This document shows, in pieces, positions 1,553 to 30,509 of a DNA stretch of 64,000 nucleotides. Source of the DNA: Dromaius novaehollandiae. Its lineage: Eukaryota > Chordata > Aves > Casuariiformes > Dromaiidae. Below the pieces are notes generated by a model. The model was not told where the DNA came from and searched no databases. It saw only the letters and a list, made by a program, of their open reading frames with translations. The stretch lies in assembly GCF_036370855.1 (NCBI RefSeq), contig NC_088110.1, forward strand, positions 21,447,501-21,511,500, read 5' to 3'. The position numbers and the translations under genes are program-made. Position 1 is the stretch's first letter. Each line of letters begins with the position of its first letter.

Positions 1553-1710
1553 CTGTACTACTTCTTTGACCAGCGTCTTGTCAGTCCCAGTTTTGGCTCT
1601 CTGCAGGCCACTGACACTCTCTCCAATCCAAGTGATGAGGGCGAACTTGACTCGCTTGCTCATGGCATCGCCGGTGGTAAATCGGACAAAACCAAACAAT
1701 CGAACATCAT
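1553..1710 (-). CDS. COTL1: COTL1 coding exon 3
   Basis: The exon encodes Asp54-Gln106, including FVRFTTGDAMSKR, FALITWIGE and the end KTLVKEVVQ. The acceptor is CTCTCCAG on the minus strand; the donor is GTAACT (1547-1552). The 158-bp length equals that expected from the human protein across this exon. Lys75 falls here. The following codons (family NFAKEF...) are not found in the remaining 1.55 kb to the left. Confidence 0.96.
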
Positions 1711-10700: not shown

Positions 10701-12975
10701 AACTGAGGACAAGCCCTGGGCTTTTCTTTATGCCTGGTAATTGTTTGGGTTTTTTTTCCTATGTTCCACGTTAAAAAAGGTTGGGTGGGAGAGGGGTTCC
10801 TGTGGTACAGGTCCCTAGCTCTCCTGACCCTGACTACTTGAATTTAAGCAGGATGCCACTCTATTTTGAAAATTTCCCCTGCAAAGGTCTCAAGAATAGC
10901 TGGAAACTAGTAGTTATGTTAGCACTGACAAGACCCCACCACAAATGTCTTGGCAGAACAGTGTAAACCCTGTGATTTAGTGACTACTTCCCAGAGCTAG
11001 AATATAGTTTTCTCCTAGGATCTCTATTTACTGATCAGAAGACCAGTCCTGCCCTCATTCAAATCAGTGGAAGTCCTGCCCTCAAACTCAATAAAATACA
11101 GCCAAGCCCTAGGACTGGAAAGGCCAATATGGACCAGTAAGACCCTCACAGTCATTAGCATTTCAGTCCATGCAGGGCTCTTTGACTACACTCCCTCCCA
11201 GGATTCGCCCCTTCCTGGGAAGCGAGAGATTGCTCAACACACAATTCCTTCACAATACAGATCTATAAGTCTAAAAATACAGAAGATTAACCATAACACT
11301 TGACTATAGAGTAACTAGGTGAGTCAGGAAGGCTTTGTTGGTTACAGACTGGCATTAGTTACAAATGCTTCATGTCTTATGTCACCTCATGACATTATTA
11401 AATATCAGGCAAGATAGGGGGAAAAGCCATACAATACCCGCCAAGAAGTTATTCTGAAAGAAATCAAAGCATGTTTTCGTAAAACATGCCAAAACTCAAG
11501 ATCAGATTAAGTTAAATATTTCTCCACGTATTTTCATTTCCCCCAGGGCTTTGTTTCTCCTGTTAATATTCCACAGCTGACAGCTTAACCATCCGCTGCC
11601 ACGTTTAAACCTAGAGCCGCAGCTGCCGGGGTTGTGCAGCGCCACACATACGATTGTCCTCAGCGCAGCATTGTTCAAGCAAATCTGCATAACCACTCTG
11701 CTCCGAGGTTTCGGGCTCCTAAAAACCGGAGCGAGCCTTCGAACGGCAGTTACGTTAGTGCTACGGATACAATCTACAGGGGAAGAATTTCCTTGCATAA
11801 CAGTCAGCATGACTAATTTTTTTAGCCGCAAAAATAGGAGTATCTTGTGCTCTTCAGTAAGATATGCTCCGAAACTGCAGCGCTAAACAATGGGACCCTC
11901 GCTAAGCAAGCGTTTTATCGGGTTTAAGCGCAGACTGAGAAGCAAAAAGAAAACTGTGGAAAGGAGGTAAAAACGCCAAAGGAACTTAAGCCCTAGGGTG
12001 AAACAAAGGACTGATGTAGCTATGGACTTTGGCTGCCGCGGGAGCGAGTCGCACTCTGTGGTGGCAGGAAAACCCGATCGTGCAGGACAGGGTGAGACAC
12101 AGGGAGCAGCAGGACACGCTCCACTTCAGCCAAGTTTCCTCCAGCTCTTTCCCCCTTGTCCTGGGCAGCAAGAAACACCGTCCGCTCCTCGTCCGGGAGC
12201 AGCCCCGCGGGGCTTACCTGTGCACTTCCGTGTGAAGGTTTCGTAGTCCACCCCTTGGTCTCCGGGGACGATGGTGGAGCCATCGTATTTAAACGTCACC
12301 CTTTGGGACGGGGAGAAGAGGAGAAGAGAAATACATTTAAAATTCACCCTTTGGGAAGGGGAGAAGAGGAGACAGGGGATGATGTATTTAAAAGCCACCC
12401 TTTGGGAAGGGAAAAGAGAAGAAGGGATGTAATGTAGTTAAGTCACCCTTTTGGCAGGGAAAGAGGAGAAAGGGGGTTGGTGTATGTAGAAGACACGGAG
12501 GAGCAGGGGGCTGATGTATTTAAAAGATATCCTTCGGGAAGGGAACGGAGGGGAAGGGGGCTGATGTATTTAAAAGATATCCTTCGGGAAGGGAACGGAG
12601 GGGAAGGGGGCTGATGTATTTAAAAGTCCCCTTTGGGAAGGGGAAAGAGGAGACGGGAATTAACGCATTTCAGCCAACCTTTAGGAAGGGCAGAGAGGAG
12701 AAAAGGGAAAATACATCGAAAAGTCACCCTTCGGGAAGGGACCGGAGGAGAAGGGGGTTGACGCGTTTCAGAGACACCCTCCGGGGAGGCACCGGCGGGA
12801 GGGGGGAGCGCAGCGCTGGCGCTCGTCCCGGCGGGCCGAGACGGGGCCCCGGAGCCCCCCGGGGCGCCGGCCGCCGCGCCCGGCCGGGGGGCACCTACCA
12901 GTTGACGGCGGTGGCGTCGTCCCTGACGAGGTTGTACGCCTCCCGGCAGGCCTCCTTGTCGATCTTGGTGGCCAT
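1553..12975 (-). CDS. COTL1: COTL1, coactosin-like F-actin binding protein (5' three coding exons; 3' end outside window)
   Basis: The minus-strand join 12975..12899, 12300..12218, 1710..1553 gives an uninterrupted 106-residue product. It opens MATKIDKEAC and contains VTFKYDGSTIVPG and FALITWIGE, which I recognise as coactosin-like protein (142 residues in human). About 36 C-terminal residues are on an exon left of the window. The family has one ADF-homology domain, binds F-actin and is a known partner of 5-lipoxygenase. Lys75, reported as essential for actin binding in the human protein, is present in KRVKFAL. All junctions are GT/AG, and the phases fit: the Trp26 codon is split 2+1 and the Asp54 codon 1+2. 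The start is chosen by family alignment. Its -3 base is C, so Kozak context is only moderate. The gene is head-to-head with KLHL36, as expected from vertebrate synteny. Identity is nearly certain. Confidence 0.97.
1711..12217 (-). other. COTL1 intron 2
   Basis: This 10.5-kb intron has no second gene. Open frames of up to about 120-140 codons at 3022-3442 and 5748-6344 occur on both strands, show no family resemblance, and look like chance or composition effects. A locally GC- and CpG-rich patch lies at about 5820-6180. Possible degenerate old repeats lie near 3660-3720 and 11030-11100. Confidence 0.75.
12218..12300 (-). CDS. COTL1: COTL1 coding exon 2
   Basis: The exon completes Trp26 and encodes Val27-Thr53 (VTFKYDGSTIVPG ... 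RKCT) plus one base of Asp54. The acceptor is CCCAAAG followed by GGTGACG; the donor is GTAAGC (12212-12217). The first 16 exonic bases and the preceding pyrimidine tract form the proximal unit of the tandem repeat that fills intron 1, so this exon edge is part of a minisatellite. Confidence 0.96.
12285..12813. repeat. ~50-bp minisatellite spanning COTL1 intron 1 and the exon 2 splice acceptor
   Basis: About 11 tandem units of 48-51 bp begin near 12285, 12335, 12385, 12434, 12482, 12516, 12566, 12616, 12665, 12714 and 12763. The plus-strand core reads GTATTTAAAAGTCACC, then CTTTGGGAAGGG, then a purine-rich GAGGAGA segment. The units starting at 12516 and 12566 are identical over 50 bp, which points to recent turnover. 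The unit starting at 12482 is shortened. Read on the transcribed minus strand, each unit is a pyrimidine-rich tract, an AG and a copy of the first bases of exon 2. The array ends about 85 bp before the exon 1 donor, so it makes up most of the 598-bp intron. Confidence 0.92.
12899..12975 (-). CDS. COTL1: COTL1 coding exon 1
   Basis: The exon encodes residues 1-25 and the first two bases of the Trp26 codon. The donor reads GTAGGT on the minus strand (12893-12898). The 77 bases lie inside a dense CpG island. The reading frame stays open upstream to another in-frame ATG at 13161, but that extension is Ala/Arg/Pro-rich island translation and is not part of the known protein. Confidence 0.96.
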
Positions 12976-14369: not shown

Positions 14370-15656
14370 TAGTCTGCATTCATCAGCCTTTGGCACCAGC
14401 TTAATGCTATTTATACCTGTAACAACTGCTGGAGTTGTCCTTGTCTTTTCAAGCTTGTTCATGAGCTCCTGAGGTTTCCTAGGGGAGAGGTGGCTGATTG
14501 AAAATGTCATTTCCCCTGAAAGGACAAAAGCTCAACCTTGTTTAGGTCTCTGATCCAGTAGCTGGCATCATTAGCAACTTTGTTCATGTTTAGAAGTGCC
14601 AGATTCAAACCTCAGAAATGCATGCCTTTCTCATGGGACCAAACCTCTTCTCCTTGCTTCTCTTCCTTTTCCTTGACACATTTTCATGGATTTTCTCTTT
14701 CAATGCCTGCAGGAATACATACTGTGCTTAGTTTCATGTGGCTGAAACTGAAGAGGGGAAAATAACTACTTTTCTGGCTTCAGTGAGCCCAGATTTGCTT
14801 TCCATATGGGAGCTCTGAGCCCTCCATCTTCTGCACGTGCATCTTCCCTGCGCAGGAGATGTCAGCTCGGCTGGCAGGAGCATCTGTCCTTTTCACAGGG
14901 GCCCTCAGAGAGGAAGCACAGCAAGCAGAGAAAGGACTTGAAGAGAAGAATATGCAGTCCCTCAGAAGATAAATGTCTCCACCAAGTATGGGGTCTTGGG
15001 TAACTCAACCAATGTTCAGTTGTCTAAACTTTATTAATGAAGTTGAGCAAGGGCCTCAGGATGGGTGGAGGGAGCAAACGGGACATACAGCTATAGCCCC
15101 CCAGGAGGCTTAGCTGTTCTCCTAAAATATATTGCTAATGCCTTACTCTTACGGCTCTTTTCCATCACACATTTTTGCTTTCTCCTTTTATGCAATGTTC
15201 CAAGTCCTGCCTGTCCATCTCTGTCCTCTTTGTGCATGAGCACTCTCTAAAATAACATGCTCTTTCAGGAAGGAGCTGCTGTGAGTTAATAGACCATAGT
15301 GAACATCAGGGTTGTGATCAAGGCAGCTTTTTTACTCGGGGAGCCCAGGAAATGAGGGATCACTATCCTATGTCCCAATGGTCACATGTGCTACAGGCAA
15401 GCCCAAAAGCAAGCAAAAATGTCTCTCATCTTCAGCCTGGATTAGCAGAAAGCCATCCTCACGTGTGGTTTGCTCTGGGGCTGAAGATCAGACCCAGCAG
15501 GCTAGATGCTACTGTAGAGCCGTCACCTCCTCTCCGTCAGAGAGGGAGTGGACGGTGGCTGGGATACTGCAGGTGCTCACGGCCAAGGCAGCCCTAGCGA
15601 CACTCCCCTTGTTTAAAACGCTGCTGCTCTTTGCTGTAGACATCATCTTCCAACGA

Positions 15657-15724
15657 GGACAACTGCCCCACCACCACGTGCTGTACACGTCACCTTCCGA
15701 GGGGACAACTGCCCCACCACCACG
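15657..15724. repeat. Two-copy tandem duplication, 46-bp period
   Basis: A 22-base segment starting GGACAACTGCCCCACCACC at 15657 recurs exactly at 15703. The linker between the copies is CGTGCTGTACACGTCACC-like. Confidence 0.85.
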
Positions 15725-17265: not shown

Positions 17266-17325
17266 ATGGAGGGAACCCGGCAAACTAGGATTTGTCGTCC
17301 ACACAAGATAAGTGAATCCTCAAAG
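17266..17325 (+). CDS. KLHL36: KLHL36 coding exon 1 (residues 1-20)
   Basis: The exon encodes [20 protein letters not shown], matching the known N-terminus of KLHL36 apart from the second Met of the human protein. The exon probably starts at 17244, after TTTGTTCTAG, and the donor is GTCGGT at 17326. It is short and lies 4.06 kb from the next exon, so it was identified by similarity and phase. Confidence 0.93.
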
Positions 17326-20300
17326 GTCGGTACATCTTGTATTACCTGCCAAAACAAGTTACAAAAATAACTGCTGTTCCTGAGAATGGGACTAAGAGGC
17401 TCTGCAGTAGATGGACAGTGTTGGAGGAAAGTGGGGAATATTCGGAGTTTCTAGAAAAGATACAAAACCAGTGATCTATCTGCTCAAATATTCTTGAAAT
17501 ATGAATTTGCTATGTTGTGCTTAAAAACAAAAAAAGTAGCAGCAAATGGGCATCTGCTCATTGTGACTCATAACTTACAAAAGAAACCTACATCACTGCA
17601 ACACAGTATTTTTTCTACAACAGAACTTAAGTCATTAAATGAAATATATGTTGGAAACTTTACGTATTGATCCATCTCATAAAACTAAAGCTAGCTACAG
17701 AAGCAGAGTTAGGCTTGCTTTTTAAACTTAATCTTTTGTTTTGTACAGAATGGGAGCCATGATCCAGCAAACAATAGTTAATCCTGTAAACTCAGTGGGA
17801 TGTTTTCTTAGGTTCGTGAGGTTCATTTTCTTTGTCTGGGATCTCTGTCGGCACAAATAAATCGATCTCTGCTGGGAATCCCAGAAGTCTATCTTAAGTA
17901 ACTCTTCATGCAAAATCAGGATGACAACCTACATTTTATAAGATGTTAATTCGGCAGTAATTGTGTTCATGTTGTTTCATGTTGGTGAAAACTGCTCTTT
18001 TTTTTTTTGTTACAGTGTAAGCACTAGGTTACAGGCATTGCAGAGCAAGCATCTACCTACCACAGTTAGAAAAGCAAAACTATTCAGTGCCTGTGTCTAT
18101 CTTATCAAAGTTGAATGAGACAGATCTTATTTTCTTTTGCCTCACTGAGGAGTAGTGATACTCCATTAAAAATCCAAAAGAAATTGGATACTTGAATCCA
18201 AAGGAAGTTAGGACTTCTACAGCTCTAATAATGAACGCTTAAAGATACAAAGAACTAATTTCTAAATGCATCCCTTCCAATATAATCTTTTCCTGAGTGC
18301 TGATCCTATATACCATTTAAAGGTTTAGTCTGAATGTAATAATAATTTGTTACATTAAAAATTAATTAACTTGACAGCGTTATGTTGTCTTCTTGCTGAG
18401 ACAGCAGCTGTCACTATCTGTTAAACTTAGAATTACTGGTTAATGTCAAAGTTGTTCAACGGAATATAAATAACTTGAGAAAGCTGTTTGTGTTTCGTGT
18501 AAAATTTGTCTTGGTTTTGAAATGTGTAACTATCATCTTGTGTTTCTTGTTCGCTGAATGAATGGCTAACTTGCTGAGTGGCTCAAATATGTTAATGTAT
18601 TCTGAGTCCATTCGGTGCCATGAGTAATCATTTTATGCATGGTTTCTGAAGTGGCAGCAGTTCTACAGGGCAGCGAGGATTTTAGCAGTACAAGTTGTCA
18701 TAAGTATTCGCAGTCAGGATTGCACTGCTGACTCTGCAGCCAGTTAAATAAATGGGGATCTTCGGCAGCTCTTATATTCTCATGTAATCTCGTTATGCAA
18801 GATGGTGGTATTAGAGAATATTGAGAGAGATGATCAACCACTTAAAAGGATGAGAAGGAATGTGGTTTTGGTTTAATCCAATAACTTTGTCTCACGAGTC
18901 AAATTCAGAATGAGGTGCTGTAAGCTGTTGGCTATTACCTCTGTTCATCCTGTAAGAAACCCTTTCTCATAATTGCCTCAAATGTATGGTTTGTCCTTTG
19001 GCATGTTTATTCTTCTTCCTACCTCCTCCACCTCTAGGCCTCTGCTTGGGCACCTGTGTGACATCAGCATCTCTCAAGCTAAAAAAAGAGGATAAAACCT
19101 TTACAATTTTTAAAGCCCATACTTTTTTTTTTTCCCCCCTGTTACAGTTCTCTGGCAATTATATTGTTCGGTGGAAGTTATTTTGTTGTCTGTGCTATAG
19201 ATTGTGTTTTAAATTCAGAGTATGAGGTATGCTCAGAGTTTTGGCCCAGAAAACTTACAATTACTGAAGCCTGTCTAGTTAGATTGGTTTAACTCTGTAT
19301 ACTTGTATGCAGTTGCTCTAAAAGAAGGCTTTTTGGCAGCTTAGCCTCCGTTGTTTAGAAAAAAGTATATGCAAAGCTAAAGAGAAACCACTTGGATATA
19401 ATGTTAAGGGTATTCATTTGGGAAATTGCATCTGATGAAACTTTCTTTGTAGATGAGGTCTAAACAGAGAAGCAGACAGAAGCTCAGATGTATGATGCCC
19501 CCCTCTTTCCCCAGTGTCAACAAACACAGTGTGATTGTTATAAAGTGGCCCTTGAGTTTTCAGTTTGGAGAGGATGTAAAATGCAAATTCCCATATGGGA
19601 GTTAATAATAATAAAAATCATTTATTAGCTGCAGGATGAAGAATTGCATGGTGAGCAATTGCAGGCCTTTGGGGAGTGGTCATGTTCCCTGCAGGTTCTT
19701 TCTGAACCTGCCAGGTGTATATTTAGGGCTCTTTGAGTTTCAGGACATGATCCTGAAAGTAAATCAGTAGGCTCTGTTTTGCTGCAGAAACCTGTGTCTC
19801 TGTGCATAATGTTATAGAAGCAGGTCTTGCTATGTATAAAAGAAATGCTGCTATACTGGCTAAATCTTATCTTTCCCAGCGTATTTGGTTATTAATGTGG
19901 ATCTGATCTTTGGCAGACTGCCTGTCACTGTACCGCCAACTGTTAAAAGGCAGATGTGGGAGGTCAGGCTCCCGAACTTGGTATTAGCTCAGAATGACTG
20001 GCTGCCGTTATGTCTGGACAGTGGTGAGCTGTGTGCATTAATCTTGGACATCTTGTATGAAAGTATGGTTACCAAATTATTTACACAGAGTGCATATACA
20101 GAGTCAGGTTTCCATGCAGCAGAAAAAGCTTGGCTCTGGGACTTGAACTTTCCTCATCCAGGTGCATAGAGAAGTCTCCCAGTGAGTTAACCAACCCGTT
20201 GATGGGTTCGCCAGACAGAAATAATCATGTGCTGTCTATCTGGGAAACTGAAAACGCGTATTTATGATTTTTAAAGGAGTAAATGGCAAGCAGTAGTTTG

Positions 20301-29300: not shown

Positions 29301-30509
29301 TATAACCTGTAGAGCAGAAGTGATAGAACAGACAGGTAGATCATGAAAAGGACATTGGACGTAACATGCCTGTAAATAAACTGGGCTGTGAACATTGGTG
29401 AGTAAGAACTGATTCATGATCCTGAAGCTGAGGAAGGGGAAGGCAGTAGTAGTTTTCTTGTTGGTTTTTCTTGGTTAATCACTACTGTTAAGTCTGACAG
29501 GTATCATGATTATTTCCTCTTTCTGTCATAGAATCCCTTGCTGAGATGTGGATTTTTTCCTCTCAGGCCCTCTCAGACTGATCCAACCCAAGCACTGGAA
29601 CAGAAAAATGGGAGAGAAGGCCATGCCAACTAGAGCAGGATGGGTTACTTCTGTTGTATGACACACTGTAGAGGATGCCTTAAAAAGTGATTGTCATACC
29701 TTAGTGCTCTGTAGCGAACAGGTATGAAAAGGATGCCTTAAAAAGTGATTGTTGTACCTTAGTACTCTGCAGCCAGCAGTATGAATATGGAGAAAAGTTA
29801 CTGGGTAACTAACAGGATTAGGGATTCTCCTGTCTTCAGTTACCATTAATTTTCTTGTTTAGTATCAATCCTTGTTAAATGCTGGGTATCTGTCTCAGGT
29901 ATCTCAATAAAATCCATAAGTACTAAGATGGACTCTTTGTTTGCCTGTCCTAGGTTTACTTATGGCCATGCTGGAACAGTCTACAAGGAATTTGTGTACA
30001 TTTCAGGAGGCCATGATTACCAAATTGGCCCATATAGAAAAAATCTGCTCTGCTATGATTATCGCACGGATGTTTGGGAGGAGAAAAGGCCAATGATCAC
30101 TGCCAGGGGGTGGCACAGTATGTGCACCTTACAGGACCATATCTATTCCATTGGAGGCAGCGATGACAACATAGAAACCATGGCCCGTTTTGACATTCTG
30201 AGTGTGGAGTCATACAGCCCTCAGTGTAACCAGTGGACCAGAGTTGCTCCTTTGCTGCAAGCAAACAGTGAGTCAGGGGTGGCCGTTTGGGAAGGCAAGA
30301 TTTATATTCTTGGAGGCTACAGCTGGGAAGAAACAGTCTTTTCCAAAACAGTCCAAGTTTATGATAAGGAGAAAAATAAGTGGTACAAAGGAACAGACTT
30401 ACCCAAAGCAATTGCTGGTGTGTCTGCATGTGTCTGTGCATTGAAACCGAAAACAGATGACAAAAAGAAAAAGACAAAAACAAAAAAACATCAAGATCGA
30501 GGAAGATGA
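17266..30509 (+). CDS. KLHL36: KLHL36, kelch-like BTB-BACK-Kelch protein (complete, 4 coding exons)
   Basis: The join 17266..17325, 21390..22463, 23325..23482, 29954..30509 encodes 615 residues; human KLHL36 has 616. Phases fit across all junctions and all introns are GT/AG. BTB covers about residues 36-137 ([31 protein letters not shown]). BACK covers about 142-245 ([25 protein letters not shown]). Six kelch repeats cover about 295-590 ([52 protein letters not shown]), followed by a lysine-rich tail. BTB-BACK-Kelch proteins are substrate adaptors for CUL3-RING ubiquitin ligases; the specific substrates of KLHL36 are not known to me. The start has good Kozak context (A at -3, G at +4). Position between COTL1 and USP10 matches vertebrate synteny. 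Confidence 0.98.
17326..21389 (+). other. KLHL36 intron between coding exons 1 and 2
   Basis: This 4.1-kb AT-rich intron has no exon or convincing repeat. It ends in TTATCACAG before GTG TAC AGA TGG. Confidence 0.8.
21390..22463 (+). CDS. KLHL36: KLHL36 coding exon 2 (BTB, BACK, start of Kelch; residues 21-378)
   Basis: The 1,074-bp exon holds the whole BTB and BACK domains and the first kelch repeats, up to [11 protein letters not shown]. The donor AAG|GTGAGA is at 22464. An open frame continues 11 codons into the intron to a stop at 22494-22496, so intron retention would give a 378+10-residue truncated form. Confidence 0.98.
22464..23324 (+). other. KLHL36 intron between coding exons 2 and 3
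   Basis: The intron is 861 bp with no gene. A palindrome-like stretch at about 22675-22760 (ACTAGGCATCTAAT ... CAGCTCCTAACT) resembles a decayed sauropsid interspersed repeat. Confidence 0.75.
23325..23482 (+). CDS. KLHL36: KLHL36 coding exon 3 (kelch repeat; residues 379-431)
   Basis: This 158-bp exon follows TTTTTTTGACAG and ends with AG|GTAATA, leaving the Arg431 codon split 2+1. It encodes [40 protein letters not shown] and WSYIAGLP, a typical kelch blade with the GG pair. Confidence 0.97.
23483..29953 (+). other. KLHL36 intron between coding exons 3 and 4
   Basis: This 6.5-kb intron has no recognised gene. It holds a degenerate tRNA-like segment (27873-27914) and a two-copy 58-bp tandem duplication (29672-29786). 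A minus-strand open frame of 151 codons (25788-26243) has no family resemblance. Confidence 0.75.
29672..29786. repeat. Two-copy tandem duplication, 58-bp period
   Basis: AGGATGCCTTAAAAAGTGAT occurs at 29672 and again at 29730. The similarity continues through TACCTTAGT.CTCTG.AGC in both copies, with a few substitutions. The array lies 168 bp upstream of the last KLHL36 exon. Confidence 0.9.
29954..30509 (+). CDS. KLHL36: KLHL36 coding exon 4 (last kelch repeats and C-terminus)
   Basis: The acceptor is TGCCTGTCCTAG. The exon completes Arg431 and encodes [19 protein letters not shown] through the lysine-rich tail, ending HQDRGR and TGA at 30507-30509. It includes three kelch blades and the strand that closes the propeller. 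Confidence 0.98.

Follow-up and report, generated by a model that had tools for sequence, protein, structure and literature searches.

The window analyzed here is a 64,000-nucleotide stretch of the Dromaius novaehollandiae genome (contig NC_088110.1), and its minus strand encodes COTL1 (coactosin-like protein). The gene is intact, with four coding exons, and its first three exons and first intron are placed as follows.

12899..12975, minus strand: COTL1 exon 1, coding part (77 nt; ends TG/GTAGGT)
12301..12898, minus strand: COTL1 intron 1 (598 nt)
12218..12300, minus strand: COTL1 exon 2 (83 nt), the first 16-22 nt of which are the source of the exonic part repeated in intron 1
1553..1710, minus strand: COTL1 exon 3 (158 nt; acceptor score of 13.9 on a rough matrix)

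Exon 4 lies 7.8 kb past the low end of the window and completes a 142-residue frame that closes on a TAA stop. Exons 1-3, translated together, align from end to end with solved coactosin-like chains (best E 4.3e-58) and also match Pfam Cofilin_ADF. The chain match and the intact frame bear out the initial annotation, which had named the gene COTL1. A genome search with exons 1-3 returned three places, all of them the window's own exons among the best candidates scored; with the same scope, a COTL1 paralogue or retrocopy was rejected as a source of the repeats described below. The reading of exon 2 is collinear with the solved coactosin-like chains and carries no insert, which places the ancestral acceptor at 12301. 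Retention of intron 1 would introduce an in-frame TAG stop at the start of the intron, and the exon 1 match contains one TAG. Elsewhere in the window, intron 3 of COTL1 holds a run of 29 C at 1027-1055 (29 G on the transcribed strand), and the plus strand at 17266-17327 contains a coding-like stretch with an ATG start, downstream of a GC-rich region. KLHL36 is the neighbor of COTL1 in human. In the genome at large, the haemoglobin exons fit a bird. The beta-type exon agrees with chain 2zfb_B at 72 of 74 residues; for the alpha-A exon, 3wtg_A ranks first among chains with one match, after six engineered double chains with two matches each. Since 2zfb is a parrot's haemoglobin and 3wtg an emu's, the two exons point to different birds. 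A lysozyme search gave three loci, one of which was translated.

Most of intron 1 (513 of 598 nt, about 86%) is a minisatellite, whose parts are listed below in order of position.

12301..12813, minus strand: minisatellite with units formed by a 3' splice site and the start of exon 2; nine decoy AGs and one degenerate unit without an AG
12301..12348, minus strand: unit nearest exon 2; use of its decoy AG at 12349 is predicted to give a 48-nt, in-frame, stop-free insert
12349..12399, minus strand: second unit; use of its decoy AG at 12400 is predicted to give a 99-nt, in-frame, stop-free insert
12448..12531, minus strand: 84-nt interval composed of a 50-bp unit and a 34-bp remnant, the latter lacking an AG at the corresponding position
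12505..12626, minus strand: perfect 50-bp periodicity, with a 72-bp exact repeat at a shift of 50 (12505/12555)

Tandem Repeats Finder (TRF) calls the array in two parts, 12287-12470 with a period of 48 and 12495-12789 with a period of 50. Its units are 48-51 bp long, apart from one 84-bp stretch that is readable as a fused pair. In transcript orientation, every unit consists of a pyrimidine tract, an AG, and a variably degraded copy of exon 2's initial 16-22 nt. The AG stands in the context AAAG or GAAG (GGAG in the outermost unit), and the bases that follow resemble GGTGAC.TTTAAATAC to varying degree. Decoy AGs end at 12779, 12729, 12679, 12631, 12582, 12532, 12448, 12400, and 12349 and the authentic AG at 12301, with AG-to-AG spacings of 50, 50, 48, 49, 50, 84, 48, 51, and 48 nt. 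The authentic exon 2 edge is thus the terminal unit, its AG closing the array, just as the initial annotation had proposed. That reading had also described units of about 50 bp built from a pyrimidine tract, an AG, and an exon 2 copy within 12285..12813. Both the composition and the array itself are confirmed; the unit size is refined to 48-51 bp, the outermost unit is a weak example, and the interval included the first 16 bases of exon 2, which starts at 12300. Its claim of two identical 50-bp units holds as well, in the form of the 72-bp exact repeat. Other two-copy tandem duplications occur in the window at 15632-15724 and 29672-29785, with 46- and 58-bp units and 87% matches.

The tandem unit spans the intron-exon boundary, joining an intron end to an exon start, and the authentic boundary is retained beside the copies in an otherwise intact gene. 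To quantify the exonic part, we summed the local alignment scores of the first 22 nt of exon 2 against the nine decoy flanks. The exon 2 start scored 78. Across 2000 shuffles the mean was 39 and the highest score 68; about 4000 other 22-mers from the window averaged 42 and peaked at 72. Since 78 exceeds every shuffle and each of those window 22-mers, chance similarity between the exon 2 start and the units was rejected. When the start was shifted 5 nt into the exon the score fell to 63, at 10 nt it was 46, and from there onward it was 36-47, near background; this fading indicates that the copied exon part is ~16-22 nt long. Ungapped identity to the exon 2 start over 16 nt was 14, 12, 12, 12, 11, 10, 9, 6, and 5 of 16 across the decoy flanks, with some of the low values due to indels of 1-2 nt. 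The exon copy is therefore present in every unit, badly degraded in some.

These results bear on the simplest alternative, that an ordinary pyrimidine-rich minisatellite merely abuts exon 2 and that its AG and exon-like parts are coincidental. Pyrimidine tracts with an AG are generic, and the genome does have minisatellites near genes (at 5 of 70 control loci, below). Against this stand the 16-22 nt exonic match, which is in register and exceeds both shuffles and other window sequence, and the TRF copies, which extend into exon 2 itself (start 12287). We regard coincidence as highly improbable.

The array is also confined to its own gene in whole-genome pattern and array searches, both of which give lower bounds. 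A 28-base unit pattern allowing up to 3 mismatches found at least five matches in the 1.47-Gb genome, all inside the array (four decoys and the true edge), where none is expected by chance in the window; the reversed control pattern found 0 in the same 1.47 Gb. A search with the whole array found at least one place. The initial annotation had named dispersal of the unit elsewhere in the genome as the observation that would count against it, and what was found instead was matches within the array, where all five of those listed lie. A dispersed or transposon-borne repeat was likewise rejected, as five of the five pattern matches listed in these lower-bound searches sit inside the array.

How often minisatellites lie close to coding sequence in this genome was gauged from 70 of 154 reported Ras-family coding matches, each taken with 1-1.5 kb flanks (189 kb altogether). 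The best 30 were picked automatically and 40 by hand from lower rows, the others being skipped. With minisatellites defined by a period of at least 15, at least 2.5 copies, and a score of at least 100, none of the 70 control loci had one within 280 bp of the Ras-family match, and five had one farther than 280 bp off; in these counts some loci overlap, one twin pair from contigs C33 and C35 is present, and the matches do not end precisely at exon boundaries. Minisatellites near genes are thus not rare in the genome, and one fused to an exon edge is absent from this small control sample. At one control locus (L027, 336-3519), a Ras-family match has large minisatellites on both sides, with 78-bp and 18-bp units in up to 54 copies. 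Contigs C33 and C35 (loci L030 and L031) carry several Ras-family matches in pairs, with equal order and scores, as if two copies of a chromosome were present in the assembly, perhaps sex-chromosome haplotypes.

The direction of copying can be read from the coding sequence. The start of exon 2 is conserved, reading WVTFRYDG in two solved coactosin-like chains and WVTFKYDG here; these conserved codons make the exon edge the source and the array the copy. The initial annotation had proposed an array seeded at the boundary by repeated duplication, and the exon edge as source stands. The mechanism is a matter that we infer, and the order of duplication cannot be read. Identity between units shows no clear dependence on how far apart they lie (Spearman -0.16, Mantel p 0.15), as expected when units are reshuffled by exchange, and a simple gradient of outward duplication is neither supported nor disproved by the same test (Mantel p 0.15).

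Acceptor-centered unit pairs are 52-89% identical in all but one pair (divergence 11-48%). The unit farthest out, on the exon 1 side, is the most decayed, at 52-67% identity to the others. Divergence of up to 48% implies that a large part of the array is old or decayed. Set against bird substitution rates, the 11-48% divergence suggests that the array is old and that a single duplication is recent; the perfect 50-bp duplication, seen in a single assembly, would fit recent turnover, and the continuing change in copy number that the initial annotation thought probable is a possibility. An assembly artefact might instead account for copy number or for the perfect duplication, as short tandem arrays are prone to misassembly and a single assembly is at hand. 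All acceptor-centered unit pairs but one differ, however, and so are not assembler copies, which leaves only the perfect 50-bp copy as one that an assembler could have made. We consider an artefact quite unlikely on these grounds. A regular-expression search for four-run G motifs on the plus strand found two G4-type motifs, at 12536-12560 and 12586-12610, in the identical units. G4Hunter exceeded 1.2 in 101 windows of 25 bases, making the G-rich strand G4-prone beyond those two motifs. G4s can destabilize minisatellites, and we take the G4-prone strand as only a hint of array instability.

The arrangement places nine decoy acceptors upstream of the authentic one, with which, as the initial annotation proposed, they might compete. 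Their scores come from a rough acceptor matrix that uses approximate vertebrate frequencies and ignores exon definition and enhancers. On this rough scale the authentic exon 2 site scored 7.7, the exon 3 site 13.9, and the decoys -1.2 to 11.1; six of nine decoys outscored the authentic site, including 12349 (10.0) and 12400 (11.1). The authentic acceptor (12301-12325) reads AAAG, with an A at -3, and has a G inside its pyrimidine tract. A TNAY branch motif is absent from the 46-nt AG-free zone of the authentic AG, where the only TNA forms are followed by A. Such a motif occurs in the AG-free zone of four of nine decoys (12679, 12631, 12400, and 12349), the other five being without one; for 12349 and 12400 it lies 30-43 nt upstream. 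The higher-scoring decoys and the missing authentic TNAY make undisturbed splicing less certain.

Use of the two nearest decoys, at +48 and +99 nt, is predicted to keep the frame open through exon 4 and to insert 16 or 33 residues. Use of any of the other seven would bring a premature stop 381 nt or more upstream of the final junction, so that these farther decoys are predicted targets of NMD. In the genomic sequence, the two nearest units (12301-12399, minus strand) are open and run on in frame into exon 2 (VAFKYII...VNFKCIS...VTFKYDG); splicing to their decoys would make COTL1 longer and not truncate it. Six of nine decoy distances are divisible by three (48, 99, 147, 231, 330, and 378), including the four nearest. 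Because unit lengths are correlated and four of those six paths meet stops, the multiples of three are not good evidence of selection.

The strongest competing account is that the decoys are used, so that a measurable share of COTL1 mRNA carries a +48 or +99 nt insert, farther decoys lead to NMD, and array length tunes output. The resulting 16- or 33-residue insertion would repeat the VTFKY segment in altered form. That both distances are in frame and stop-free speaks for this account, as do the scores of 10.0 and 11.1 against 7.7 and the TNAY motifs that the authentic AG misses. Its scores come from a matrix of approximate frequencies that ignores exon definition and enhancers, and the insertion would fall at W26/V27, inside conserved COTL1 sequence. 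Precedents point both ways. Human ABCA7 intron 18 has a VNTR with a splice donor at the head of its 25-bp unit, which shows that single-unit retention occurs in a vertebrate; exon 19, the next one, is skipped more often the longer the VNTR (PMC5954066). According to the same passages, however, unit retention is minor, out of frame, and independent of VNTR length. The passages cited for amphioxus describe 'mirages', minisatellite-like tandem duplications of an intron-exon boundary in which many units keep AG or GT signals, the authentic boundary stands beside the copies, and regular splicing is reported as undisturbed (PMC3087553; PMC3902484). By analogy with these mirages, we favor mainly normal splicing, and we judge measurable decoy use unlikely. 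A stronger version, in which intron 1 is a series of 3' splice-site cassettes and several can each be used on their own, would give isoforms with 16- or 33-residue inserts, and copy number would shift the balance of normal, lengthened, and NMD-targeted mRNA; we hold this to be more doubtful still.

Taken as a whole, the best explanation in our view (a probability of roughly 0.7) is a mirage-type boundary minisatellite that grew from the exon 2 acceptor, with splicing mainly normal. A segment of ~50 bp across the intron 1/exon 2 boundary, comprising the pyrimidine tract, the AG, and ~16-22 nt of exon 2, would have been tandemly duplicated. Slippage or unequal exchange may then have produced about 10 extra units that now make up most of intron 1, with the pyrimidine/purine repeat and its G4-prone stretches as a plausible substrate. 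The perfect 50-bp duplication would be the youngest visible event, and constraint on exon 2 would have preserved the original exon edge at the end of the array. The authentic AG (12301) is most likely still the main acceptor, the decoys being rarely used; in the rare cases, the two nearest would add 16 or 33 residues in frame and the others would lead to mRNA decay. We read the array mainly as a by-product of mutation whose decoys may be used at a low level, and its repeated acceptors are probably mostly harmless. Either way, the locus offers a natural test of how the spliceosome chooses one acceptor among ten similar ones. If the decoys are used, COTL1 would be a clear example in which a minisatellite contributes protein sequence in frame and unit number tunes a gene; if they are not, it would show how harmless repeated acceptors can be.

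The novelty implied by the initial annotation holds for gene and host only. Our literature search, which covered mostly open-access papers, found no COTL1 or bird case of a boundary or acceptor minisatellite, and in the one bird paper that contained 'mirages' the word occurred only in a cited title. Tandem duplication of a splice-signal-bearing segment is shared with a potato RdRp case of intron gain (PMC4974935) and with the Rogers model of such gain, as cited in PMC3087553. Those cases yield a new intron, whereas in COTL1 an old intron was lengthened and no new one arose. The ABCA7 VNTR and the COTL1 array are both vertebrate intronic repeats with a splice signal in the unit. The former is on the donor side, much longer, and polymorphic, and the COTL1 array is on the acceptor side; the passages on ABCA7 do not state that its unit is a copy of an exon edge, as the COTL1 unit is. 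Amphioxus mirages share with COTL1 a boundary-spanning tandem repeat and an authentic edge kept beside the copies. The lancelet genes named in the cited passages are Adh (Adh3), the globins BflGb6 and BflGb9, troponin C (TnC), and PGBD5 (PMC3087553; PMC3902484), and the BflGb6 mirage repeats the 3' end of an intron together with the 5' part of exon 2 (PMC3087553). Mirage units are given there as 10-72 bp (Adh3) or 150-160 bp (BflGb6), compared with 48-51 bp in COTL1. For BflGb6, two haplotypes are reported to differ in unit number, and Adh3 is reported to be somatically unstable; the COTL1 array is known from one assembly. The mirage host is a cephalochordate and its units are 81-100% identical, in contrast to divergence of up to 48% in the bird. 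The COTL1 array is thus a mirage-type arrangement, of a kind already described in amphioxus, in a new host group and a new gene, and it extends to a bird the boundary mirages that, in the literature searched, were found described only in amphioxus.
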